A stretch of DNA of 64,000 nucleotides from Paenibacillus pabuli (GTDB lineage Bacteria > Bacillota > Bacilli > Paenibacillales > Paenibacillaceae), in the NCBI RefSeq assembly GCF_039831995.1, contig NZ_JBDOIO010000004.1:744001-808000 (forward strand). The letters are read 5' to 3'. Positions 1 through 18,801 of this stretch are shown here, in pieces. Numbering within the stretch: position 1 is the first letter of the stretch; each line of letters begins with the position of its first letter. The position numbers and the translations under genes are program-made. The notes beneath the pieces were generated by a model. That model ran no database searches. It was not told where the DNA came from and was given only the letters and a program-made list of their open reading frames with translations.

Positions 1-675
1 GGATACAGCGACTATACGGAGCAGCCGCGTGACATCGATACCATTGTAGATGAAGTTCATCAATTGCTGCGCAAATCCGGTCAGCGACCACCGTATATCA
101 TGGTGGGCCACTCCCTGGGATCTCTGGAGACGCTTCGATATGCACAATTGTATCCGGATGAGGTGGCAGGTATCGTCATGATCGATGGGGGCAGTCCTGA
201 ATATTACAGCACAGTGGAGATGGATGCGCCAGACTGGTATTTCGATTCAGCAAGGTTTCTGGTGAAAACAGGCATTGCACGTACATTGCTGCATTCGGAT
301 CGGATGATGGCAACGCTGGTTATTGACCCGGATCTGGTTGCAGAACCGATGAAAAAGGCCGCTACCAGTTCGACGCTGAAGCATGCGTACAATGACAACG
401 TGATGGATGAGATCCATCGTTCCAGGATCAACGCAGCCCGCGTGCTGGAGAACAAACAGGAATTTTCTTTTCCCCTAACGATCCTGACGGCGGGATCAGA
501 CCAACCAAGTGAGGGAAGCCAGGCATGGCAGGCAGATCAAGCCGAGTTTGCCTCATGGTCCATACAGGGAAGACAGCAGATCGTTCCTCACGCGGAGCAT
601 TACATCCATAACAGTCAACCGGATGACGTAGCGGATGCCATATTGGAAATGGCTAAGTCAACAGGCAGCAAATGA
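1..675 (+). CDS. Alpha/beta hydrolase, 3' part
   Basis: The reading frame is open from the first base, so the gene starts outside the window; 224 residues are visible. The nucleophile elbow GHSLG lies at about residues 36-40 (Ser38 of the visible part), followed by a hydrophobic helix and the segment VAGIVMIDG typical of the alpha/beta hydrolase fold. A late His in the segment PHAEHYIH is the likely catalytic base. The substrate cannot be read from the sequence. The stop overlaps an ATG (ATGA) of the downstream frame, but the small gene that follows more likely starts at 720. Fold assignment is confident; specific function is unknown. Confidence 0.85.
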   Translation, partial: GYSDYTEQPRDIDTIVDEVHQLLRKSGQRPPYIMVGHSLGSLETLRYAQLYPDEVAGIVMIDGGSPEYYSTVEMDAPDWYFDSARFLVKTGIARTLLHSDRMMATLVIDPDLVAEPMKKAATSSTLKHAYNDNVMDEIHRSRINAARVLENKQEFSFPLTILTAGSDQPSEGSQAWQADQAEFASWSIQGRQQIVPHAEHYIHNSQPDDVADAILEMAKSTGSK

Positions 676-7022: not shown

Positions 7023-8228
7023 ATGGATATGCTCATATTCGAAGTGGGAATTGCTGTTGCGCTGATTACACTTACGGGGCTAATATCTGCACGATTACGA
7101 TTTTCGGTCATTCCTTTCTACATTCTGATCGGGATGGCGGTTGGACCGCATGCGCCACAGATCGGCATTGTGGATCTGCGTTTCATCGAAAGCTCGGCAT
7201 TTATTGAATTTATGGGCAGGCTAGGCATTTTGTTTCTTTTATTTTATCTTGGACTTGAATTCTCGGTCTCCCGATTGATGAAATCGGGCAAAGCCATATT
7301 GACCGGCGGCATGTTCTATGTAGGGCTTAATTTTGCTTCCGGTCTGCTGCTGGGCTGGTTCATGGAGTTACCGTTAAAAGAGACGCTGGTGGTGTGCGGC
7401 ATCATGACCAGCTCTTCTACAGCAATTGTGGCCAAAGTGCTCGTTGATCTGAAGCGCACGGCGAATCCCGAAACGGAGATTATTATGGGCATGATCATGT
7501 TTGACGATCTGTTCATTGCCATCCATATCTCGATCCTGACAGGCCTCGTTCTTAGCGGGGCAACCTCATTCCTCAGCGTACTGTTGGTATCCTTGTCTGC
7601 GATGCTGTTCATTGTGCTGTTTCTGATCATTGGCCGGAAAAGCATCAAGTATATTGACAAGGCGCTGAATATCAAATCATCCGAATTGTTTCTGCTTACC
7701 GTGATGACATTGCTCTTCCTGGTGGCTGGTTTTTCGGAAACACTGCATGTTGCCGAGGCCATCGGTGCGTTAATGATGGGATTGGTACTCGGTGAATCGA
7801 GGCATGCGCAACGAATTGAGCATCAGGTCATGCCGTTCAAGGACTTTTTTGGCGCGATCTTCTTTTTCAGCTTTGGACTGACCATTGAACCCTCTTCCCT
7901 TGGGGGTGCTGTCGGGATGACGATCATTGCAGTCATATTAACGATCGCGAGCAATTATGGCGCAGGAATGATTGCAGGCAGAATGTCCGGAATGACGCCC
8001 AAGGCTTCGCTCAAGGTAGGATTTACCCTGGTTTCCCGAGGGGAGTTCTCGATCATTATGGCGAACATTGGCAAGGCCGGGGGACTGATGGTTTCAATCC
8101 AGTCATTTGCCGTGCTGTATGTGCTGATCCTGGCGGTGCTGGGTCCAATCCTGACGAAGGAGGCGCCGTGGATATATGGACAATATGAGCGTCTAAGGAA
8201 CCGATTACGAAGGAAAGAGACAGGTTAG
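7023..8228 (+). CDS. khtU: CPA2-family K+/H+ antiporter, KhtU-like
   Basis: A 401-residue integral membrane protein with about 12 hydrophobic segments. The N-terminal FEVGIAVALITLTG, IGMAVGPHAPQIG, FLLFYLGLEFS and CGIMTSSSTAIVAKVL are typical of the Na+/H+ exchanger (CPA2/KefB-like) fold. The protein ends after the last membrane helix without an RCK domain, which is supplied by the preceding KhtT. It probably exports K+ or NH4+ in exchange for protons. The start has only a weak ribosome binding site and is likely translationally coupled to khtT. A strong terminator follows. Confidence 0.88.
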   Translation: MDMLIFEVGIAVALITLTGLISARLRFSVIPFYILIGMAVGPHAPQIGIVDLRFIESSAFIEFMGRLGILFLLFYLGLEFSVSRLMKSGKAILTGGMFYVGLNFASGLLLGWFMELPLKETLVVCGIMTSSSTAIVAKVLVDLKRTANPETEIIMGMIMFDDLFIAIHISILTGLVLSGATSFLSVLLVSLSAMLFIVLFLIIGRKSIKYIDKALNIKSSELFLLTVMTLLFLVAGFSETLHVAEAIGALMMGLVLGESRHAQRIEHQVMPFKDFFGAIFFFSFGLTIEPSSLGGAVGMTIIAVILTIASNYGAGMIAGRMSGMTPKASLKVGFTLVSRGEFSIIMANIGKAGGLMVSIQSFAVLYVLILAVLGPILTKEAPWIYGQYERLRNRLRRKETG

Positions 8229-8244
8229 ATTGAATTCTGGTAGG

Positions 8245-8297
8245 AGCGTCACACCACGGAGAGATCTTCATCTCTCGGGTGTGGCGCTTTTTTTTTG
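8245..8297 (+). terminator. Rho-independent terminator of antiporter operon
   Basis: GCGTCACACC / GGTGTGGCGC with inner GAGAGA / TCTCTC pairing, followed by TTTTTTTTT. Confidence 0.92.
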
Positions 8298-8350
8298 GTT
8301 TCCTTGCTCCCAAATGAGGTAAACGAGCGAGGGGGAAAATTCGTTTTGCT

Positions 8351-9229
8351 CTAGGGAAGTTGAATCTGAATATTCTCGGTATGCACGGCGACTCCGCCGA
8401 TCCGAACCTGAGTGATCTCGTTGGAAGGGCCGAGTGTTATTCTGCCCTGGATCTTCGAAGGACGGTTCATCGTGTACCCTTGTTGGATCATAAAAGTCTG
8501 ATCATGGGGAGTTGGAAGCTGTTGATACTTATGCAGGTAACACAGCAATGCACCATTGGATGTACCTGTGGCGCTCTCTTCCGGGATGTCGTATAGAGGG
8601 GCGAAGTTCCGACATTCTGCCAAAGCTGCATTACCTTGCGTTTCGAGTGCAAACACATGATAGCCCACCACTTGATGAGCTTTGCTGATGTCGGCAATAT
8701 GCCGCAGGTCAGGGTTAATGGTTGCCAAAACATCAGGATGCCTAACCGGAATTAATATATCATGCAGCCCGGTAGACACGATCTGCACAGGCAGTTCAGG
8801 ATGTAGATCCTGCAACGGAATCTGCAGGGAGTCTGCGATGTCCTGCCGGTTAACCAGCTCTCCAAACTGCGGAAGCGTCTGGGATAGATAGACGTCACCA
8901 TCTTCCTCAACGGTTACTTTGAGAATTCCTGCAAGTGTATCAAGCGTATACACACCCACGTCGACAATCTGCTCGGCCTTCATCAGATAAAATAGCGCCA
9001 CCGTTGCATGTCCACAGAGGTCAACTTCATGGTTTGGGGTAAAGAAACGTACTTTGTAATCGGCAAAATCCGAGGGCATAACAAATGCCGTTTCGGAAAA
9101 GCCGACTTGTCGGGCAATGTCCTGCATCTGTATAGCAGACAAATGCTCTGCTTGTAGAACGACCCCAGCCGGGTTGCCTCCCTCAGGCGTATCAGAAAAT
9201 GCATGTAAGGTACGTACCTCTATTTCCAT
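8351..9229 (-). CDS. PhzF family isomerase/epimerase
   Basis: A 292-residue protein of the PhzF/diaminopimelate-epimerase-like fold. It shows FSDTPEGGNPAGVV near the N-terminus, the catalytic glutamate Glu46 in GFSETAFV, the segment FFTPNHEVDLCGHAT, and the late glycine-rich EESATGTSNGAL. PhzF proper isomerises trans-2,3-dihydro-3-hydroxyanthranilate; stand-alone homologues like this one usually have unknown substrates and there are no phenazine genes nearby. ATG 9229 follows GAGGT. It is divergent from the cyclase gene, whose promoter lies in the 220-base gap. Confidence 0.88.
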   Translation of the reverse strand: MEIEVRTLHAFSDTPEGGNPAGVVLQAEHLSAIQMQDIARQVGFSETAFVMPSDFADYKVRFFTPNHEVDLCGHATVALFYLMKAEQIVDVGVYTLDTLAGILKVTVEEDGDVYLSQTLPQFGELVNRQDIADSLQIPLQDLHPELPVQIVSTGLHDILIPVRHPDVLATINPDLRHIADISKAHQVVGYHVFALETQGNAALAECRNFAPLYDIPEESATGTSNGALLCYLHKYQQLPTPHDQTFMIQQGYTMNRPSKIQGRITLGPSNEITQVRIGGVAVHTENIQIQLP

Positions 9230-9388
9230 TTTGTTTTACCTCGCTTGTCCAGTTGGTTCGTGAAAAATGAGAATGCTCCAATTATATCATGCTTGATGCC
9301 TGAACTGATGAAACGAGGCCGGTCAGCAATTGTTGATCGAAGGTCAAGTGAGTCGCTGCACAGGGTTGGAGGCAGGAACAGAACTGCA

Positions 9389-9417
9389 TTCCCATATATG
9401 GAGGTTTAAGATATAAT
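9389..9417 (+). promoter_or_regulatory. Probable promoter of cyclase gene
   Basis: TTCCCA, 17 bases, then a perfect TATAAT, about 40 bases before the start codon. A second TATAAT on the minus strand near 9283-9288 may serve the phzF-like gene. Confidence 0.5.
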
Positions 9418-9456
9418 AGTAGAAATTTATTCCATTCTGCGTATGAGGTGATCCCA

Positions 9457-10194
9457 TTGTCCAATGAACTCATTCAAGCCATTCAACTGTTAAAAGAGAA
9501 AAAGTGGGTTGATCTGACCCATACCTTCGGGCCGGAATCGCCGCACTTCTCTGCTTTTGATGCAGCCCAGTTTGATACGCTGTTCAATCACGACCAAGGA
9601 TTTTTTGCTCAGAGCTTCAAATTCCCCGGTCAATACGGCACCCATCTGGATGCACCGATTCATTTTGTACGTGACACGCGTTATCTGGATGAGCTGGGGC
9701 TGAAGGAGCTAGTGCTGCCGCTTGTGGTCATTGACCAGTCTGCTGCCGTGGCGAGCAATCCGGACTTTACGCTGGATGTCGAGCATATTCTTGAATTTGA
9801 AAAGGAACACGGGGTGATTGAAGAAGGCAGCTTCGTGGCACTTCGTACAGATTGGAGCAAACGCTGGCCCAGTCATGAAAAGTTCGACAACAAGGATACG
9901 GAAGGCAACAGCCATGCGCCCGGTTGGTCGGTTAGTGCACTGATGTTTTTGTTCGAGGAACGCAAAATCAAGGCCATTGGCCATGAAACCTTCGATACCG
10001 ATTCAGCTGTGGATTATCAGAAGAATGGTGCACTTCTCGCGGAATATTATGTACTTGCTCAGGATACATATCAGGTAGAATTGTTAACCAATCTGGACCA
10101 GGTACCAGCAAAAGGTGCAGTGATCTTCAACATTGTACCGAAGGCCGAAAAGGCATCCGGATTTCCGGTCAGGTCCTTTGCCATTTTGCCTTGA
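9457..10194 (+). CDS. Cyclase-family hydrolase (kynurenine formamidase-like)
   Basis: A 245-residue protein with the metal-binding signature GQYGTHLDAPIHF of the cyclase/kynurenine-formamidase family, preceded by VDLTHTFGPESPHF and followed by late GHETFDTDSA. The family hydrolyses amide or ester bonds using a divalent metal. TTG 9457 was chosen because GAGGTG (9445-9450) sits at good distance; a GTG at 9448 overlaps that site. No tryptophan-degradation genes are nearby, so the substrate is open. The gene stands alone between two terminator-like elements. Confidence 0.85.
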   Translation: MSNELIQAIQLLKEKKWVDLTHTFGPESPHFSAFDAAQFDTLFNHDQGFFAQSFKFPGQYGTHLDAPIHFVRDTRYLDELGLKELVLPLVVIDQSAAVASNPDFTLDVEHILEFEKEHGVIEEGSFVALRTDWSKRWPSHEKFDNKDTEGNSHAPGWSVSALMFLFEERKIKAIGHETFDTDSAVDYQKNGALLAEYYVLAQDTYQVELLTNLDQVPAKGAVIFNIVPKAEKASGFPVRSFAILP

Positions 10195-10271
10195 TACATT
10201 AGCTTTCAGATGAATCCAAGTTTATTAAAATTCAAAGGCTATTAACTAGATGATCCGTTCTCATATGTAGT

Positions 10272-10299
10272 AAAGGAGGCACGAGTTGCCTCCTTTTGT
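10272..10299. terminator. Bidirectional terminator
   Basis: AAAGGAGGCA CGAGT TGCCTCCTTTT lies between the convergent cyclase gene and the small minus-strand gene. It has T or A tracts on both sides. Confidence 0.85.
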
Positions 10300-10304
10300 A
10301 TGTC

Positions 10305-10505
10305 TTACTTCTGATCCGAGTGGGGATTCGGATTGAATCGTTGTGAGATTTTCTTCTCTGCTTTCTTGCGCCGAATCCAGCGCTTAAGTATGCTCTGTTG
10401 CTTTCTTTCTTCTAGTGTTTCTTTCATGCCTTGAATCATGAATTCGGATCTTCGTCTATCATCCCGACTAATCTCGCGTAATTCCTTAATAAATTTGTCG
10501 TCCAT
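10305..10505 (-). CDS. Small basic hypothetical protein
   Basis: A 66-residue, highly charged protein (MDDKFIKELREI... ending PNPHSDQK) with a Lys/Arg-rich helical middle and no membrane segment. ATG 10505 follows GAGAGG with about 6 bases spacing; the frame is open upstream without a site. No family recognised. Confidence 0.5.
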   Translation of the reverse strand: MDDKFIKELREISRDDRRRSEFMIQGMKETLEERKQQSILKRWIRRKKAEKKISQRFNPNPHSDQK

Positions 10506-10699
10506 ATCTGCCTCTCGCTCATTCAGGATAACATCATTATACCGAACGTACGTTCTTTTATCAAGTTTTACCATTATCCATTTCATCCGTGACAGATTTA
10601 GTGAAAAAGTGCACAGGATCAATCTGCTCCATATGTAAAAATGGAATAGAAAATGCAGTTAATGCAGTGACATCTGTATACTTGTCTGGAGGGTGAGGT

Positions 10700-11080
10700 A
10701 TGGGAGCAGGCGAAGAACGAATAAGGCGTAAACAGGGTCTCGGCAGATTGTCATGGGCACTTATCCTATTGCAAGGATTTTTGGGCATTGGTGCGATCGT
10801 AGGAGGGGGAGGCCTCATTATCGATCCATCCGGAAGTCTCCTCCATATGCCAAACTCGTTGCTGGAACATTCCCCGTTTGGCAATTTTTTGTTCCCGGGA
10901 ATCATACTATTGTTGGTTCTAGGTATAATGCCGATCGTGATTGCTATTTCGCTTATTGCTCACTCTCATTGGGGAATAGGGGAAAAACTTAACCTCTACC
11001 CGGATCGATATTGGGCATGGGGCCTTGCGATTCAGATCGTTACTCTGCTGCCTGGCCTGCAGCGAAGATATTCCAGATAG
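10700..11080 (+). CDS. Membrane protein of unknown function, possibly internally deleted
   Basis: A 126-residue protein with hydrophobic segments at about 17-40 and 62-87 and a third near 104-118. The glycine-rich GIGAIVGGGGLIIDPSG and FLFPGIILLLVLGI resemble a family of small four-helix membrane proteins in Bacillales. From memory that family normally continues after the YWAW motif with another full membrane helix; here YWAWG runs almost directly into a short C-terminal stretch ending LLPGLQRRYSR. An internal deletion is therefore possible. The ribosome binding site GGAGGGTGAGGT is strong. Confidence 0.65.
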   Translation: MGAGEERIRRKQGLGRLSWALILLQGFLGIGAIVGGGGLIIDPSGSLLHMPNSLLEHSPFGNFLFPGIILLLVLGIMPIVIAISLIAHSHWGIGEKLNLYPDRYWAWGLAIQIVTLLPGLQRRYSR

Positions 11081-11115
11081 ACAATTTAACACAAATATAC
11101 AATCTTCATCATTAA

Positions 11116-11166
11116 GAAACGGCTGCCGCCAGGACCATGGAGTGATCCTGTCAGCAGCCGTTTTGG
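11116..11166. terminator. Bidirectional terminator
   Basis: AACGGCTGC / GCAGCCGTT with an inner CAGGA / TCCTG stem and T tract, between the plus-strand membrane protein and the minus-strand substrate-binding protein. Confidence 0.85.
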
Positions 11167-11174
11167 ATTTTATT

Positions 11175-13001
11175 TTACTTGGATGCGTTGTAATTACTCA
11201 AGAACTCTTTTACTTTGGCCGGATCAGACTTCAGTTCATTCCCGGTCTGAACGAGCGGACTTACCGTAGAGTAGGCTTTGAGTTTGTTGTTCTTATAGAA
11301 TTGCAAAATTTCATCCTGATTGATGGAGTACAGTACGGCCTTTCTCAGATCACTGCTCTTTGCCACATCCCTATTCTTGGTGTTAAACAGCAGATAGGAA
11401 ACGGCATTGCTCGGAATGCTCTGCAGCTTCAGCTTGCTGTCACTTTCAATGATGTCATACTTCGTTTCAGGTACTCCGTAATACAAATGAATCTCACTGC
11501 TGCGAAGCGCAGACAGCGCACTGTCAGCATCCGCGATGAAGCGAACGTTTACCTGCGAAATTTTCGGTGCATATTCTGATCCTTTGCGGTATCCGGGATT
11601 TTGGTAGAATACGCCCTCATAGTCATTTTTGTAAGCCAGGATGTAAGGTCCGCTTGCATACAGCGTGTTGTTGTAGGAAGCACCCTCTGTAACCGTGTTC
11701 TGATCACCGTAAGGAATATCCTTGTTTACGTCAAAAGAAGCTACGTCATAAGTGTTAATGCTCTCCACCTGTTTTTTGGACACGATCCCTGCAGATTGGT
11801 GAGCCAGGTAGTTCAGCACTTGAGGGAAAGGCTCCGTTGTGGTCAGTTTTACGACCTGATATTTTCCTGCATTATTATCCGCTTTTGTTTTGTCAGAGAC
11901 CAGTTCGGTGATTTTGGAATCGAGTCCTTGCTCAAGTGCGTCTTTGATCGTTCCGTTACCGCCGGATTGCTGGATGGATTCCAGGGTACTCAGGTCGGTT
12001 ACCAGCTCTGCCTCTTTGATATGCTCGTGCAGGCTGTATGTCCGGTGATCCGGAACGGAGTCTTTATTTTTGGCACGGTCCAGAGAGAAAATGACGTCAT
12101 CGGCACCAACGCGCTCCCCGGTATCCACCGCTTTTTTATTTTCAATCTTTGCAAAGTTAATGTCGTCTCTGAGAATGAAATAATACTCCGAATTCCCTTC
12201 AGCGATGCTGAAATTGTGGGAAAGTGATCCTTCTGCTGTCAATTGATCATCATCCGTCAGATTCACCAGACGAACATACATGTTGGTGTTCAATTGGTTG
12301 ATGGAGCCGTCGTTACCTTTGATCGGGTCAAGGGAAGTCAGCACGGAGGCACTTTGCGTCAGGATCAGCGGATCTTTTGTATTTTTGGAACTGTCCTTGA
12401 ATTCAATCGGTTCCCAGGCCATGGCACGAGATTTGGACAGGCGCACCGTATCCGGATTCAGGATATCCTGATTCACTGCCTGACTTTTCAGGGAAATGTA
12501 CAAGGGAGCGATGTAGGCTTGATCCGTTACCAGACGGTCTTCCAATTGTTTGTACGTTTCCTTGTACTCTTCTGGTGTTTGGGTAGCTGCCTGGTCAATG
12601 AGTTTATCGATCTCTTCATCTGCCAGTATGCTGTAGTCACCACCGGTTTTGAAAAGGGAACGAACGGCATAGTCTGGGTTACCGGTTACTGTTGTCCAGC
12701 TGGAGAGAGCGATATCGTAGTTGCCCGCGTCCTGTTGGGATTTGTAGCTGCCGTAATCCGGCTGCAGATTCAGCTTCACATTGAAGCCGTTTTTGGTCAG
12801 CTGGTCCCGGATAATGTTAACGTCATTTTCGGAAGAGCTCTGGGCAAGCAATTCAATGTCGACTGGAGCCTGATTCTGAGCGTTCTCTGCTGGCGTAGTC
12901 GGGGCCGTTTCCGATTGGGATTCGGACTTGGTCTTCACGCTGCAGCCTGAAATCACGAGGACGAGAATGAGCAGCAATGAAATCAACGAACGTTTTTTCA
13001 T
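11175..13001 (-). CDS. Peptide ABC transporter substrate-binding lipoprotein, circularly permuted
   Basis: A 608-residue lipoprotein (lipobox VISGC, Cys20) of the SBP_bac_5 (OppA/DppA) family. The order of segments is abnormal. Residues about 47-201 correspond to the usual C-terminal lobe: a queried-peptide segment, then GNYDIALSSW, PDYAVRSLF and the LYKEAE-like YKQLEDRLVTDQAYIAPLY. The usual N-terminal start (PLILTQSASVLTSLDP) appears only at about residue 211, followed by FILRDDINFA, VGADDVIFSLDRA and ASGPYILAY. The protein ends at KSDPAKVKEFLSNYN, exactly where a normal protein would continue into the residue-47 segment. ATG follows AGGAGG. It is the third gene of a minus-strand operon after both permeases. 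Confidence 0.88.
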   Translation of the reverse strand: MKKRSLISLLLILVLVISGCSVKTKSESQSETAPTTPAENAQNQAPVDIELLAQSSSENDVNIIRDQLTKNGFNVKLNLQPDYGSYKSQQDAGNYDIALSSWTTVTGNPDYAVRSLFKTGGDYSILADEEIDKLIDQAATQTPEEYKETYKQLEDRLVTDQAYIAPLYISLKSQAVNQDILNPDTVRLSKSRAMAWEPIEFKDSSKNTKDPLILTQSASVLTSLDPIKGNDGSINQLNTNMYVRLVNLTDDDQLTAEGSLSHNFSIAEGNSEYYFILRDDINFAKIENKKAVDTGERVGADDVIFSLDRAKNKDSVPDHRTYSLHEHIKEAELVTDLSTLESIQQSGGNGTIKDALEQGLDSKITELVSDKTKADNNAGKYQVVKLTTTEPFPQVLNYLAHQSAGIVSKKQVESINTYDVASFDVNKDIPYGDQNTVTEGASYNNTLYASGPYILAYKNDYEGVFYQNPGYRKGSEYAPKISQVNVRFIADADSALSALRSSEIHLYYGVPETKYDIIESDSKLKLQSIPSNAVSYLLFNTKNRDVAKSSDLRKAVLYSINQDEILQFYKNNKLKAYSTVSPLVQTGNELKSDPAKVKEFLSNYNASK

Positions 13002-13043
13002 GGGATTACCTCCTGATAATTTTAAATTGAATGAATGGTTTGA

Positions 13044-14558
13044 TTACGCCTTTATCAGTTTCGGATCAAGTGCGTCGCGCAGACCGTCACCGAGAAAGTT
13101 GAATGAAAGAACGAGCAGAATGATAGCCAACCCTGGATAAATCGCCAGATACGAGTGCGTTTCCAGATATGTACTGCCCAGCTTGAGAATGTTGCCCCAT
13201 TCCGGGATATGTGGCTCAACACCCAGTCCGAGATAGCTCAGGCTGCTGGTTGCAATGACCGCCCCACCAATGGTAAGCGTGGATTTGATGATCATTGGCG
13301 CAAGCGAGTTGGGAATGATGTGCTTGAAGATGATGGAACGATTGTTATAGCCGAGTGCACGCGCAGCCTCCACGAATTCAAAAGTGGATACGTACAGGAC
13401 GCTGGCTCTCATGGTACGAGCATAAGTCGGGATCGATCCCAGACTGAGTGCCAGGATGAGATTGACCGTATTGGCACCGAATGCTGCAATGATGGCAATG
13501 GCCAGCAGGATGCCCGGAATGGCATAGAGAACATCAAGCAGCCGCATGATGATATTATCCGTGTGTCTTCCATAGAATCCCGAGAAGGCCCCCAGGACGC
13601 CACCGATGATCACGGGAATAATGGTCGACAAGCAGCCTACAATCAGCGAGATGCGGGCACCGAATACGATTCTGGAGAACAGGCATCGCCCGAAATCATC
13701 CGTTCCTAGTGGATAAGCCAGGGATGGTGGTTGCAGCAGGGCGGAATAGTTGTTTTCGACCGCCATACTGTAATCAAAGGTGAAGAAGCTGCAAATTGAG
13801 ATGGAAAACAAAAAGATGATAAAAAACATGCCGGACATCGCTGTTACGTTGGGGGCCAGTCGGTCCCACAGGTCGTTCCAGAAGTTTGATTTCTGTTTCC
13901 CTTGTCTCCGGTAGCGCCCGATGATGGAAATGCCGAGCAGCAGTGCGAATACGTTTCCTGTGACCGAAGTCAGGATCAGTAGGATGCTGATAGCAATCAT
14001 CCAGCGCGGAATAATAGAAACTGCAGTATACTGGGCCACGATCATCAGGACGACCAGGTCAATGACCAGAATGAATAGCAATGCGGCCATGGCTGGTAAA
14101 AAAGTATCGGACACATAGGGTTTGAACATATTGAGTGCCGATACGCCAATAACGAACAGCTGCGTCAGCAGCATATAGACCGCAAAAGTGTACTCCACCT
14201 GCTTTGCTTTTTTGATCAGATGAAATGCCGCTGTGACGATAAATATGTTTCCGGAACAGATGGCAAGCAACTGAACCCAGGCTAGCCTGCGGGTTAATGC
14301 TGAAATATGTCCGTGTCTGATCAAGTCTTTTCGGATGAGCAGCATCAGGATACTCTGAATGATGGTGAAGAAAAGATAGATACAAAGTGCAGTCAGCAGA
14401 AAGGGCCTGAACTCTTGTCGGCCCAGATCATAGCTGTTGAACAGCAGCAATACCGTCAATAAGAGAGAAGTGACCCACGCGAAACTGGCCTGGCTGTACT
14501 CTGGTGATGACTTCAGCCGGAAACGTGCTTCTTGTGTTAAGGAACCCGATTTTGTCAT
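13044..14558 (-). CDS. OppC/DppC-type permease with long membrane N-terminus
   Basis: A 504-residue permease. From about residue 232 it is a normal OppC-type subunit: LGTDDFGRCLFSRIVFGARI (284-303), then the ABC-facing EAA loop EAARALGYNNRSIIFKHIIP, and the C-terminal LGLGVEPHIPEWG and LNFLGDGLRDALDP-like segment. The first about 215 residues are extra and contain around six hydrophobic helices (near 27, 52, 91, 122, 153 and 183-213). Typical OppC proteins are about 300 residues. ATG follows AGGTG. The gap to the upstream permease gene is 12 bases and to the binding protein 42 bases, so these are one operon. Confidence 0.88.
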   Translation of the reverse strand: MTKSGSLTQEARFRLKSSPEYSQASFAWVTSLLLTVLLLFNSYDLGRQEFRPFLLTALCIYLFFTIIQSILMLLIRKDLIRHGHISALTRRLAWVQLLAICSGNIFIVTAAFHLIKKAKQVEYTFAVYMLLTQLFVIGVSALNMFKPYVSDTFLPAMAALLFILVIDLVVLMIVAQYTAVSIIPRWMIAISILLILTSVTGNVFALLLGISIIGRYRRQGKQKSNFWNDLWDRLAPNVTAMSGMFFIIFLFSISICSFFTFDYSMAVENNYSALLQPPSLAYPLGTDDFGRCLFSRIVFGARISLIVGCLSTIIPVIIGGVLGAFSGFYGRHTDNIIMRLLDVLYAIPGILLAIAIIAAFGANTVNLILALSLGSIPTYARTMRASVLYVSTFEFVEAARALGYNNRSIIFKHIIPNSLAPMIIKSTLTIGGAVIATSSLSYLGLGVEPHIPEWGNILKLGSTYLETHSYLAIYPGLAIILLVLSFNFLGDGLRDALDPKLIKA

Positions 14559-14570
14559 ATTGCACCTGCT

Positions 14571-16013
14571 TTAATATTGTTTCATCTTAGAACGTACTCT
14601 TGGATCGATAAATGCGTACAACAGGTCTACAATCACGTTAATGATGGAAATGGTAATCGCAGTGTATACTACTCCGCCCATGATACTCGGAATATCGGGA
14701 ATAAATTGTTTATCCACAATGTAACTGCCGAGTCCGCTAATATTGAACACTTTCTCCGTTACGGCCGCTCCGCCGAGCATACCTCCGAATTGCAAACCAA
14801 CGACCGTTACGATTGGAATCAAGGCATTGCGTACCGCATGTTTTAGCAGAACACTCCGTTCGCTTAATCCTTTGGCGCGAGCTGTCATCACGTAATCTTC
14901 GTGAATGACTTCCAAAGTGGAAGAACGGGTCATCCGGGCCACCGCAGCCGTTAATCCGGTTCCCAGAACGATAGTTGGCATAATGATGGACAGCCAGTTC
15001 TGGGGATTGAATGTTGCGGGTAGCCACTGCATTTTAATCGAAAAGTTCAGGATGAAGATCAGTCCCTGCCAGAAGTTCGGGATCGACAGTCCGATTAGAG
15101 CAATAAACATAAATGTGTAATCAAACAGTGAGTTGGGCTTGATCGCCGAGATGATCCCGATTGGAAGTGCGATGACAAGGGCAAGCAGTAGAGAAATAAC
15201 TGCGAGTGTCAGTGTAATCGGAAACTTTCTGGCAATGGTCGCTGTCACATCCTCATTTCCCGAGAAAGACTTGCCAAGATCAAACAGCGCAATTCCCTTA
15301 ATATTGTTCCACAGCTGAACGAGATAGGGCTGATCCAGACCGTATACATGATTAAAGGCTGCAATCTGCTCCTGTGTCGCCGTCTCTCCGAGAATGTTGG
15401 CTGCCGGATTGAACGGAGACAGATATAAGATGGTAAATACGAGGGTAGCCACGCCCAAAATGACGAACATCGTCATCAGTATTCTTTCGAATATGTACTT
15501 TAGATAAGGATTGCCATAGATCAATAGAATGACGTACATCAGACAGCCTGGAATGATAGATAGGGCAAAAAACCAGGGTTTTTCCAGCAATGTACGGAAC
15601 GTGTCAGCCATGGTCAGGCGCTGCGCTCCATGTTCCTGCAGCCTTCGTGACGTTCGTTCATTTAACTCTTTTTGATACGTTTCCTCCAACCACTCCTCTG
15701 CCTGACGTTTGAATTCAGGTTCACTGACCTGCTGCTGGAAGAAATGGTGTTTGCGCCTCAGCTGTTCTTCTACTATTGTTCGAAGCTTATCCCGGTAAGA
15801 AGAAGAGAGCATCTCCTGTTCTACAGCTCGCTGAGCCGTTTGCCATCCATCCTTTTGGCGTCCTGATTGCCACATCAGAAGCACAATCAGATTGAGTGGC
15901 AGCCCCAGAATAAACAACACATATCGGTAGGAGGGATGAAGCAGCATTTTGCCATAAATAAAACTCAGATTCTGTGCAAGCCGTGACATTTTGCTGCCTA
16001 CTGCAAGATTCAA
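14571..16013 (-). CDS. OppB/DppB-type permease with extended N-terminus
   Basis: A permease of about 480 residues. The C-terminal about 310 residues follow the OppB/DppB pattern: RILMTMFVILGVATLVFTI, LSPFNPA, YGLDQPYLVQLW, FDLGKSF, and the EAA loop TARAKGLSERSVLLKHAVRN. The first about 170 residues are additional: a membrane helix, a roughly 90-residue charged helical segment rich in Glu, Arg and Gln, then a second membrane helix. TTG 16013 was chosen because AAAGGAGG lies just upstream. An ATG at 16032-16034 precedes that site and would put the ribosome binding site inside the gene. It is first in the operon. Confidence 0.87.
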   Translation of the reverse strand: MNLAVGSKMSRLAQNLSFIYGKMLLHPSYRYVLFILGLPLNLIVLLMWQSGRQKDGWQTAQRAVEQEMLSSSYRDKLRTIVEEQLRRKHHFFQQQVSEPEFKRQAEEWLEETYQKELNERTSRRLQEHGAQRLTMADTFRTLLEKPWFFALSIIPGCLMYVILLIYGNPYLKYIFERILMTMFVILGVATLVFTILYLSPFNPAANILGETATQEQIAAFNHVYGLDQPYLVQLWNNIKGIALFDLGKSFSGNEDVTATIARKFPITLTLAVISLLLALVIALPIGIISAIKPNSLFDYTFMFIALIGLSIPNFWQGLIFILNFSIKMQWLPATFNPQNWLSIIMPTIVLGTGLTAAVARMTRSSTLEVIHEDYVMTARAKGLSERSVLLKHAVRNALIPIVTVVGLQFGGMLGGAAVTEKVFNISGLGSYIVDKQFIPDIPSIMGGVVYTAITISIINVIVDLLYAFIDPRVRSKMKQY

Positions 16014-16071
16014 ACCGAGCAAACCTCCTTTCATTCAGGTTTAAATTGCATTATTCCGATTGATATAGTAT

Positions 16072-16122
16072 ATATTATTTAGGGTCTATTCAATTGTCAA
16101 GGTATGGAATTGTGTACATATT
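16072..16122. promoter_or_regulatory. Divergent promoters with overlapping -35 boxes
   Basis: Minus strand: TTGACA (16100-16095), 17 bases, TAATAT (16077-16072), reading into the permease operon. Plus strand: TTGTCA (16094-16099), 17 bases, CATATT (16117-16122), reading into the ATPase gene. The two -35 hexamers occupy nearly the same bases on opposite strands. Confidence 0.6.
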
Positions 16123-16159
16123 ATGAAGCGCGTAAATATGAAGGAAAGCAGGTGTTCAT

Positions 16160-17905
16160 ATGCAGCCTTTACTGAAAGTAAGTAATTTGTCCGTTTCATT
16201 TCATTCCGGTGAGAGTGAGTTTCAGGCGGTACGGGATATCAGCTTCGAGGTTCGGAAAGGGGAGACGCTTGGGATTGTTGGAGAGTCGGGAAGTGGCAAA
16301 AGCGTAACAGCCCGTTCCATTATGAGGCTGCTCGCCTCCCCTCCATCACAGATGAAGCAGGGTGAGATCTTGTTCCGTGGAGTCAACCTGGCGACCAAAA
16401 CGCAAAAGGAGATGGAAAGCATTCGCGGCCGTGACATCGGCATGATTTTTCAGGATCCCATGAGTTCGCTTAATCCGACCATTAAAGTTGGAAAACAAAT
16501 CTCCGAGAGCCTGATCAAGCATCAGAAGTTGTCCCGCAGGGAAGCGAAGAAGCAAGCCATCGCCATGCTCGAACTGGTCGGCATATCACGGAGTGAGGTG
16601 CGCTACAATCAGTACCCGCACGAGTTCTCGGGAGGCATGCGTCAGCGGGTCATGATTGCCATTGCACTTGCTTGCCGGCCTGAGCTGCTTATTGCCGATG
16701 AACCGACGACTGCACTCGATGTGACTATTCAGGCGCAAATCCTCAATCTGATGAAAGATATGCAGGAACGGCTGGGCACATCCATTATACTGATTACACA
16801 TGATCTGGGGGTCGTGGCCGGAATGTGTGACCGCGTCGTGGTCATGAAAGAGGGACAGATTGTAGAGTCCGGGACAACGGCCGAGATCTTCGCGAGTCCG
16901 AAACACGAATATACGTCCAGATTATTGAATGCCTTGCCGCGGCTGGATGAGAAGAAGAAACCCAAACCGGTTTCGCTGTTCCCTAAGGATCTAAAGGATA
17001 ACCAGCCTCTGCTTGAGGTGAAATCCCTGCGGCAGCATTTTAATCTTGGCAAAGGCAATACACTGAAGGCAGTGAATGATATCAGCTTTTATATCCGCCA
17101 AGGCGAGACACTGGGGGTCGTAGGAGAGTCTGGCAGCGGCAAATCCACGACGGGACGTGCCATCTTGAGACTGCATGAACCGACAGGTGGAGATGTATTG
17201 TTCAAAGGTGTTCCACTGAACCGGTTGTCTGCCTCGGAAATGAAAACGATGAGACGGCATATGCAGATCATTTTCCAGGACCCCTATGCCTCATTGAATC
17301 CGAAATTAAGAATTATGGACATTATCGGTGAAGCTCTTGATATTCACCAGCTGACCAAGACAACAGCGGAGAGAGAGAAGCGGGTGGAAGAGCTGCTGGA
17401 GATGGTGGGGCTTGATCCATCCCATGCACTGCGGTATCCTCATGAATTCTCTGGCGGTCAGAGACAGAGGATCGGTATTGCGCGGGCACTCGCTGTAGAA
17501 CCTGAGTTTATTGTGTGCGATGAGCCGCTATCTGCGCTTGATGTGTCCATACAGGCGCAGATCGTGCAGCTGTTGGAGGAATTGCAGCAGCGACTTGGTT
17601 TGACTTACCTGTTTATTGCACACGACTTGTCCATGGTCAAACATATCAGTGACCGTGTGGCCGTGATGTATAACGGCAAAATCGTAGAGCTTGCCGAGAG
17701 TGAAGAGCTCTATTCCAACCCTCAGCATGCGTATACGAAGTCGCTTCTCTCAGCAATTCCCGTTCCTGATCCGGCAGTGGAAGCGAAGAAAAAACGGATT
17801 GTATCAGAAGAAAGCAGCAGGGAGCAGCTTGCGGATCGTTACAATCTGGAGCAGTCCAAGTGGGTCGAGGTTACGGAAGGGCACTGGGTGGCTGTTTCTA
17901 GTTAG
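16160..17905 (+). CDS. Fused OppD-OppF-type ABC ATPase
   Basis: A 581-residue protein with two nucleotide-binding domains. Domain 1 has Walker A GESGSGKS at 41-48, signature FSGGMRQ at 156-162 and Walker B LLIADEP at 176-182. Domain 2 has Walker A at 322-329, FSGGQRQ at 430-436 and FIVCDEP at 450-456. Each is followed by the oligopeptide-type C-terminal extension (HEYTSRLLNALP; HAYTKSLLSAIP). It should power the divergently encoded peptide permease. ATG follows AGGTG. Fused DppDF-type ATPases are known; its placement on the opposite strand is less usual. Confidence 0.92.
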   Translation: MQPLLKVSNLSVSFHSGESEFQAVRDISFEVRKGETLGIVGESGSGKSVTARSIMRLLASPPSQMKQGEILFRGVNLATKTQKEMESIRGRDIGMIFQDPMSSLNPTIKVGKQISESLIKHQKLSRREAKKQAIAMLELVGISRSEVRYNQYPHEFSGGMRQRVMIAIALACRPELLIADEPTTALDVTIQAQILNLMKDMQERLGTSIILITHDLGVVAGMCDRVVVMKEGQIVESGTTAEIFASPKHEYTSRLLNALPRLDEKKKPKPVSLFPKDLKDNQPLLEVKSLRQHFNLGKGNTLKAVNDISFYIRQGETLGVVGESGSGKSTTGRAILRLHEPTGGDVLFKGVPLNRLSASEMKTMRRHMQIIFQDPYASLNPKLRIMDIIGEALDIHQLTKTTAEREKRVEELLEMVGLDPSHALRYPHEFSGGQRQRIGIARALAVEPEFIVCDEPLSALDVSIQAQIVQLLEELQQRLGLTYLFIAHDLSMVKHISDRVAVMYNGKIVELAESEELYSNPQHAYTKSLLSAIPVPDPAVEAKKKRIVSEESSREQLADRYNLEQSKWVEVTEGHWVAVSS

Positions 17906-17930
17906 AATTGAATCAGGAGCGATCAATCAG

Positions 17931-17987
17931 CACAAAAAAAGAACCCCCGTCAGTGATCTGTGGAAGACCAACTGTGTGGGGGTTCTT
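17931..17987 (-). terminator. Terminator of lipoprotein gene
   Basis: Read on the minus strand, AAGAACCCCC / GGGGGTTCTT is followed by TTTTTTT. It also lies just past the plus-strand ATPase stop and may block read-through from it. Confidence 0.8.
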
Positions 17988-18018
17988 AATACGTTTGTTT
18001 TAGGAATGATGGACTGTA

Positions 18019-18801
18019 TTATTTGAATTGTACGGATTTTTTGATGTTGTCAATTTCGGCTTTGCTTGCATCATCCAAATAAGTGAAGATGAAGTTGAAT
18101 GCATAACCCTCAATAATGGTGCTGTAGTAATCTTGTGTAATGGTTGTGCCGTCACCAGCATCCATCGTGATTTGCATGACATCCATCTCTTTACCGCCGA
18201 TGGTTTCGGTTGCGATTTCTTTATAATCATAAGGGAACTGGCTGTCGACCATGAATTTCTTGGTTGCTTCCAGATAGTCTTTACCTGTGCGAATACCTTG
18301 CAGGAGACTGACTTTCTCGGCAATCGCCATAGCGGAAGGGCCAACTTCCTGACCGCCAAGCGGTAATTCGGAAGCCATCAACAAGTTCAATGTTTTGGCT
18401 TGGGACAGTTCAAGCTGTTTTTTCTTCGTATCATCGTCACCGGCGATGGCATCTGAAGAAGCACTTGTCAGCTCGTTCATTCCTGCTGCATCCTGGAACT
18501 CCCATTCCTCAGGGAATTTCAATGATACGCCGAAGTAGTCATTGGTGTAGGAACCTTTTTCCGTTGTGCCCAGTTCAACGTTTGCGGAATTGTCTTCTTC
18601 GTCCGCTGCGGCATCAGTCGTTGTTTCCTTACTTTCGGTATCCTCAGTCTTGGATGTATCCGTGTCTGTAGCGGCTGCAGTTTCTGTTTTAGTCGTGTCT
18701 TCCGTTTGAGCGTTGTTATCTGCCTTGTCACCGCAAGCGGCTGCAACAAGCATCATCATGATTAACATAGCGAATAAAGACGTTTTTTTTGTGATAGACA
18801 T
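18019..18801 (-). CDS. Lipoprotein of unknown function
   Basis: A 260-residue lipoprotein with signal peptide and lipobox LVAAAC (Cys23). An acidic, Thr/Asp/Glu-rich linker (about residues 25-75) tethers a globular domain beginning SYTNDYFGVSLKFPEEWEF. That opening resembles the PsbP-like or 'SpoVR/DUF'-style domains of secreted Bacillota lipoproteins, but I do not name a family. ATG follows CAGGAGGG. It lies downstream of the LuxR gene on the same strand, with a 115-base gap holding palindromes, so it may be regulated by that protein. Confidence 0.8.
   Translation of the reverse strand: MSITKKTSLFAMLIMMMLVAAACGDKADNNAQTEDTTKTETAAATDTDTSKTEDTESKETTTDAAADEEDNSANVELGTTEKGSYTNDYFGVSLKFPEEWEFQDAAGMNELTSASSDAIAGDDDTKKKQLELSQAKTLNLLMASELPLGGQEVGPSAMAIAEKVSLLQGIRTGKDYLEATKKFMVDSQFPYDYKEIATETIGGKEMDVMQITMDAGDGTTITQDYYSTIIEGYAFNFIFTYLDDASKAEIDNIKKSVQFK

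Follow-up and report, generated by a model that had tools for sequence, protein, structure and literature searches.

In what order does the lipoprotein gene at 11175..13001 of a Paenibacillus pabuli window carry the parts of its fold, how old is that order, and which transporter does the protein serve? The window is the whole stretch of 64,000 nucleotides that we analysed (NCBI RefSeq assembly GCF_039831995.1, contig NZ_JBDOIO010000004.1, positions 744,001 to 808,000 of the forward strand). An earlier note, made from its letters alone, had proposed that the gene encodes a circularly permuted oligopeptide-binding lipoprotein of the SBP_bac_5 family (PF00496). We are all but certain that this is a natural circular permutation; profile matches, a rotation scan, profile-profile alignment, sequence comparison with solved structures and comparison of a predicted structure all support it. 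As a whole, we consider it probable that the protein is a permutant of the cluster C substrate-binding protein (SBP) fold, arisen once, serving as the binding subunit of a Gis-type ATP-binding cassette (ABC) importer with a likely glutathione-type ligand. The gene and its parts are as follows.

11175..13001, minus strand: circularly permuted SBP_bac_5 lipoprotein, GisD-like, 608 residues (profile matches and predicted structure)
13009..13014, minus strand: ribosome-binding site AGGAGG, 7 nt 5' of the ATG (sequence)
12942..13001, minus strand: signal peptide and lipobox, residues 1-20 with Cys20 (sequence, Cys20 conservation, signal region of the ordinary-SBP profile)
12867..12941, minus strand: variable anchor linker, residues 21-45 (weak conservation; predicted local distance difference test score, pLDDT, low through residue 43)
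12414..12866, minus strand: the fold's usual C-terminal third, residues 46-196, now first (sequence and profile matches)
12372..12413, minus strand: join of the old C- and N-termini, residues 197-210 (conservation and predicted model)
11178..12371, minus strand: the fold's usual N-terminal two thirds, residues 211-608, now last (profile; model against DppA)

Order of the parts

The gene is intact, as had been claimed without naming a strand: its open reading frame runs unbroken for 608 codons from an ATG on the minus strand. The lipobox and good ribosome-binding site described earlier also hold, with AGGAGG 7 nt before the ATG and Cys20 invariant in 43/43 aligned sequences (the P. pabuli window protein and 42 diverse relatives at 38-98% identity).

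We compared the protein with PF00496 in its native order and after the rotation that the earlier note had suggested (residues 205-608 followed by 40-204). The native order gave no single collinear match; it gave two out-of-order stretches, with residues 265-601 on profile positions 11-273 and the N-terminal piece on 300-366. The rotated sequence gave one stretch, 61-487 on profile 11-366, and scored 142.8 bits versus 132.9 for the native order (curated cut-off 32.4 bits, passed). An ordinary member matches PF00496 once, in order from N to C; this protein does not, and it is counted as a circular permutant of SBP_bac_5. Against solved structures, the native order matched DppA in three out-of-order pieces, each weak alone (one of them 65-162 on DppA 369-470), and the rotated order in one piece spanning the join (275-527 on 209-470) together with a separate N-terminal piece, with E-values of 8.7e-10 and 1.2e-12, respectively. 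The family profile in native order showed the same out-of-order pattern on 5u4o, 3tpa, 3m8u and 7ofz, the four chains with alignments. The usual C-terminal part, placed by the note at about residues 47-201, is thus indeed first, residues 46-196 matching the C-terminal region of the profile and of DppA. The usual N-terminal start appears only at about residue 211, and residues 211-608 make up the N-terminal two thirds.

A control profile built from ten ordinary SBPs of the source genome gave the same answer across the family, with 43/43 sequences out of order as they stand and 43/43 in order once rotated. In the native layout the profile region from 365-396 to about 522 comes first and that from about 42-58 to 337-367 last, so that the two pieces cover the ordinary profile about once; the two ends are complementary, as had been supposed. 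Across the join of the old termini the spacing from W196 to Q216 is 19 residues in all 43. The source genome (6.95 Mb) encodes 14 further SBP_bac_5 proteins (16 PF00496 matches, two of them the permuted gene), and all 14 were in order on the same profile (ten SBPs, each left out in turn, and four of regulator type). In these last four (L160-L163, 573-627 residues, all of ordinary order) the SBP profile match starts only at about residue 122-136; presumably they are SgrR-like regulators with an N-terminal DNA-binding region.

When the rotation was scanned in steps of 5, the best start residue fell within 176-216 for the window protein and for its S. aureus, Mammaliicoccus and Desemzia relatives, and at the native start or within 10 residues of it for three ordinary paralogues, themselves in the profile. 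Profile-profile comparison gave two alignments for the native order (368 and 195 columns, overlapping on template 365-416) and a single alignment of 477 columns for the rotated one (E 5.3e-56). The PF00496 matches listed for 26 genomes of the class were single stretches, nearly all spanning most of the profile; a second out-of-order stretch was absent among them, but the window protein's own two stretches were also not among the matches listed.

An AlphaFold2 model (pLDDT 89.0, predicted template modelling score 0.84) was confident through the join of the old termini; a single-sequence model (mean pLDDT 32.6) was not used. Residues 210-608 of the model align with DppA (1dpp) 1-344, and in 50/50 rows listed its residues ~198-608 fall on the N-terminal portion of a solved cluster C protein, so that the predicted model matches the cluster C SBP fold. 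Of the comparison with DppA/OppA that the earlier note had called for, the match to DppA was positive for this larger part. Several points temper the case for permutation. The structural match spans only model residues ~198-608, the front part (46-197) being supported by sequence matches; the structure is a prediction, and identity to its solved relatives is low (16-23%). In addition, the rotated total score on the ordinary-SBP profile exceeds the native total in only 37/43 sequences, and the gain is small (medians 153.2 native, 159.5 rotated); the reason is that the native total adds up separate pieces and, in 20/43, includes a signal-region match that is absent from the rotated form.

Spread and origin of the permuted family

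The same order was sought in related genomes, and it recurs. A phmmer search returned 1541 hits, of which the 120 best listed are 587-618 residues long, with 73-98% identity and 96-100% coverage. Overall, full-length relatives range from 38 to 99% identity, the nearest named ones being Paenibacillus illinoisensis and P. xylanilyticus (98-99%). Named relatives come from Paenibacillus, Saccharibacillus, Brevibacillus, Cytobacillus, Neobacillus, Niallia, Sporosarcina, Planococcus, Shouchella, Desemzia, Jeotgalibaca, Bacillus safensis, Oceanobacillus, Kurthia, Mammaliicoccus and Staphylococcus. Full-length matches were present in 11/59 genomes of the family, where the next best match was partial at ~30%. 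At E <= 1e-15, 35 of 398 genomes of the class matched, 34 with a full-length gene and one (G400) with a fragment, and a phylum-wide draw gave 4/398, all of the same genus. The family and class labels of the surveyed genomes (Paenibacillaceae, Bacilli, Staphylococcaceae) follow from named relatives. The fragment (L130) is a truncated copy that keeps only some 215-220 residues from the end of the permuted gene and has a short piece of an ATPase tail next to it.

The full-length members furthest from the window protein in the class draw (G089, G370 and G327, 40-41% identity) appear to be staphylococcal, since the SBP of locus L126 (G089) is 80% identical to S. aureus cluster P0122 and that of L128 (G327) groups with S. 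warneri. A tree of the 43 proteins, with a midpoint root that serves only the drawing, sets Staphylococcus off on a long branch (1.73 changes per column), followed by Mammaliicoccus and then the others; the long branches make the placement of these two genera unsure. The permuted family is old and widespread, and it is related to S. aureus GisD. Because the break points are shared, the permutation appears to have arisen once, before the staphylococcal and Bacillus/Paenibacillus forms diverged. A close relative of ordinary order was not found in the 59 genomes of the family, in which the rotated query (E <= 1e-16) matched each of the 11 permuted genes as two pieces and, apart from these, a single ordinary paralogue with 25% identity.

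Several records among the relatives stand out individually. Three clusters of 873 residues (P0124, P0125 and P0126, one named S. aureus) have a permease domain fused to the permuted SBP; their residues 324-873 match P0122 42-591, so the signal peptide is missing. A copy labelled Arthrobacter (L083), 94% identical to a Sporosarcina copy, and one labelled as a chytrid fungus (P0005) look like contaminated assemblies. A 362 kb Metabacillus plasmid carries the four-gene cassette described below (L175, NZ_OK052578.1) and might be a means of its transfer. A 30 kb S. aureus 'plasmid' record (L174, NZ_CP077929.1; 12 annotated features) contains repeated pieces of the locus, with two ATPase genes under one protein accession, and looks like a mis-assembled contig.

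How the order came about is less firmly indicated. A possible origin is the one suggested earlier, tandem duplication followed by loss of the outer halves. As worded that route is incomplete, because losing the outer half of the first copy would also lose the signal peptide, yet the protein keeps a signal peptide and lipobox in front. It is also weakened by the matches listed, among which there is no duplicated form (best 120 of 1541; best 120 of 219). The alternative that the 3' third of the gene moved to just behind the signal-peptide region, with no duplication and loss, draws on the same absence and on the signal region, which still matches that of ordinary SBPs in 20/43 members, the P. 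pabuli protein included. The event is old, however, and duplicated intermediates may have been lost; tandem duplication, moreover, is the commonly invoked route to natural permutants. We regard such a move as conceivable, at odds below even.

A Gis-type cassette and its likely ligand

We asked which transporter the permuted protein belongs to, using the best 80 of 108 related stretches found in a contig search (loci L021-L100). The neighbouring features of the window are the following.

13044..14558, minus strand: OppC-type permease (GisC-like), 504 residues (PF00528, PF12911; in the same place in 80/80 loci)
13899..14558, minus strand: N-terminal extension of the OppC-type permease, residues 1-220, with about six extra hydrophobic segments (hydropathy scan and family searches)
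14571..16034, minus strand: OppB-type permease (GisB-like), 487 residues (PF00528, PF19300)
15510..16034, minus strand: extension of the OppB-type permease, residues 1-175, with two extra hydrophobic segments and a 96-residue charged loop
16160..17905, plus strand: fused double ATPase (GisA-like), divergent (two PF00005 stretches)
16043..16072, minus strand: conserved promoter/operator-like element, in the gap separating the ATPase gene from the permeases

A divergent fused double ATPase, two permeases and then the permuted gene were present in all 80 public loci, the ATPase match being cut by the contig end in L082 and partial in L076. This is the Gis layout of a divergent fused ATPase, two permeases and an SBP lipoprotein. 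The window permeases are also extended at the N-terminus, a feature that we used as a criterion of our own, outside the Gis paper's definition. By a crude hydropathy scan, the ~175 extra residues of the OppB-type and ~220 of the OppC-type protein hold two and about six extra hydrophobic segments, whereas an ordinary permease pair of the source genome has 319 and 277 residues with five hydrophobic segments each. The OppC extension was found in 80/80 loci and the OppB extension, searched alone, in 78/80. In the class the OppC extension occurred in 34/396 genomes, exactly those with a full-length permuted gene in a parallel 398-genome draw, so the permuted receptor and the extended permease travel together. 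We are highly confident that the permuted protein is the binding subunit of a Gis-type ABC importer.

The staphylococcal cassettes provide the closest link to function. In loci L126-L128 the permuted SBP, preceded by a divergent ATPase and two permeases, is followed by ggt (3/3), and the permeases of L126 are also extended (448 and 390 residues). Identity between staphylococcal and window cassettes is 39-40% for the SBP (38-41% over the staphylococcal relatives as a whole), ~50% for the ATPase and 42-49% for the permeases. In S. aureus, gisA is presumed to be transcribed away from gisBCD-ggt, and a transposon insertion in any one of the five genes decreased growth on reduced (GSH) or oxidised (GSSG) glutathione as sulfur source, according to the main text of PMC10355420; growth at low GSH depends on Gis in a gisD mutant study (main text of PMC12510641). 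Cluster P0122 is probably GisD, because it is 80% identical to the SBP of the L126 cassette with its ggt. If so, the permuted receptor works in vivo.

For Paenibacillus we lean by analogy towards glutathione or a close relative (reduced or oxidised, a gamma-glutamyl or a thiol peptide), taken up for nutrient use. Invariant residues such as W102, T104, V105, P109 and Y111, together with the four-gene relationship (~39-50%), were counted in favour of a glutathione-type ligand. The charged pair that anchors dipeptides in DppA (R383 and D436, in the available text of PMC12136057) is not found: D436 aligns with V105, invariant in 43/43, and around R383 an Arg falls within residues 47-60 in only 4/43, its position being uncertain by a few residues. 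V105 at the D436 position argues against a canonical dipeptide binder. Other facts pull away from glutathione. The gene ggt adjoins only the staphylococcal loci (3/3), with no ggt match in the window or in the 80 loci (flanks up to 8 kb, shorter at contig ends); glutathione binding would follow from ~40% identity; and among the NCBIfam models, all of them far below cut-off, the rotated protein scores best on SapA and not on GsiB. These invite a second account, in which the permutation is real but the Paenibacillus/Bacillus ligand is another short peptide or thiol compound, staphylococcal GisD having specialised together with ggt. The long staphylococcal branch fits it, as do the flanking genes inspected, which vary and gave no sulfur theme. 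We consider this distinctly the less probable of the two, and glutathione or a close relative the likelier ligand.

The intergenic element consists of a promoter-like TTGACA and a strongly conserved stretch with the consensus TACTATATC-N-ATCGGAATAATGCAA, and its core occurs in 60/79 loci examined (L076 was dropped, its ATPase match not starting at residue 1 or 2). A search tolerating up to 3 mismatches found one copy in the source genome. A sulfur regulon was considered and rejected: besides that copy, a relaxed search returned seven hits with 3 mismatches, versus 2 in a reversed-pattern control, with no evident sulfur context in the open reading frames inspected. Text on the regulator CymR supplied no motif sequence for comparison, and we assign no regulator to the element. 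Rfam gave nothing at the gathering threshold in window positions 8000-18500.

Sequence and predicted structure put the usual C-terminal third immediately behind the signal peptide, the lipobox and a flexible linker; a short segment of constant length connects the old C- and N-termini, and the new C-terminus sits at the point where an ordinary protein passes from a helix into a strand of the C-terminal lobe. Given this order of parts, the lipid anchor precedes a C-lobe segment and not an N-lobe one. We propose the following working model. The lipoprotein would be tethered outside the membrane by its N-terminus, on the C-lobe segment; it would close on its ligand and dock on the permease pair, with the fused ATPase driving import, and the permease extensions may receive a receptor tethered from the other lobe. 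A further and tentative idea, which we would not bet on, is that GisD-type proteins form a reverse-tethered receptor class, in which one ancient permutation was fixed together with extra permease membrane segments that accommodate or guide the receptor. If true, the cassette would be a distinct peptide-importer architecture, more than a rearranged sequence. The anchor linker is long, and the effect of moving the anchor could be small.

Two accounts would deny the permutation itself. The C-terminal fragment of one SBP might have been fused with the N-terminal fragment of a different one, and both pieces are so weakly similar to known SBPs that a common parent is not provable by sequence. We hold this to be very improbable, since in each of the 43 the two pieces stay clear of each other on the ordinary profile, which they cover about once (the last ends at 337-367, the first starts at 365-396), the rotated form aligns collinearly along 477 columns, and the fold is predicted with confidence. 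A local assembly rearrangement or pseudogene has a negligible chance of explaining an open frame with an invariant lipobox whose order recurs in 43/43 sequences and, at full length, in 34/398 genomes of the class, many of them independent.

Comparison with known systems

No natural circular permutant of SBP_bac_5 or of ABC-importer binding proteins was found in the open literature, with supplements and most subscription papers outside its scope, and permuted binding proteins in published titles and abstracts are engineered biosensors. Neither PMC10355420 nor PMC12510641 contains the string 'permut' in its main text; a supplementary domain figure of the former, outside that scope, may show the order. 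Natural permutants exist in unrelated folds, including the cpRAS GTPases and the swaposins. Terms for binding proteins occurred once across PMC12667903, PMC2395249 and PMC11757225, within a reference. What we describe is a conserved permutation, apparently unreported, in a large receptor family, one whose staphylococcal system member has been characterised.

The nearest well-studied relatives of the fold keep the ordinary order. E. coli DppA (DppABCDF; 1dpp, 8z1z) shares the fold and is collinear with the permuted protein across the join once this is rotated, but its order is ordinary and its ligand residue D436 is Val105 in the permuted family. E. coli GsiB (1uqw), a glutathione-binding SBP, is among the best structural matches but also ordinary in order (model 208..606 on chain 3..320), and the NCBIfam GsiB model scores 54.4 for the rotated protein versus a cut-off of 594. 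The GsiABCD system resembles the window cassette in its fused double ATPase of the YejF/GsiA kind, the window ATPase lying below both cut-offs. GbpA of H. parasuis (3m8u, in complex with glutathione disulfide) differs in having the ordinary order, and so does SapA (NF011689), whose NCBIfam score is the highest (65.7 bits native, 68.9 rotated; cut-off 560).

The permutation has persisted in many genera, among relatives of a glutathione importer whose genetics have been studied in S. aureus. With it one can ask, in a natural setting, if delivery to the transporter depends on where the lipid anchor sits on a Venus-flytrap receptor. Such systems can escape surveys: in its main text, the Gis survey, covering only genomes with a Ggt homologue, restricts the full system to Staphylococcus, with some near-complete sets in a few bacilli (PMC10355420), and the four-gene cassette with no neighbouring ggt reaches far wider. 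Compared with S. aureus GisD (GisABCD-Ggt; PMC10355420, main text), the P. pabuli protein is ~40% identical and its cassette has no ggt beside it; its role would be assigned by analogy. The likeness lies in the architecture: the S. aureus relative P0122 has the same rotated order, and the GisABCD-type loci L126-L128 likewise combine a divergent ATPase with extended permeases.
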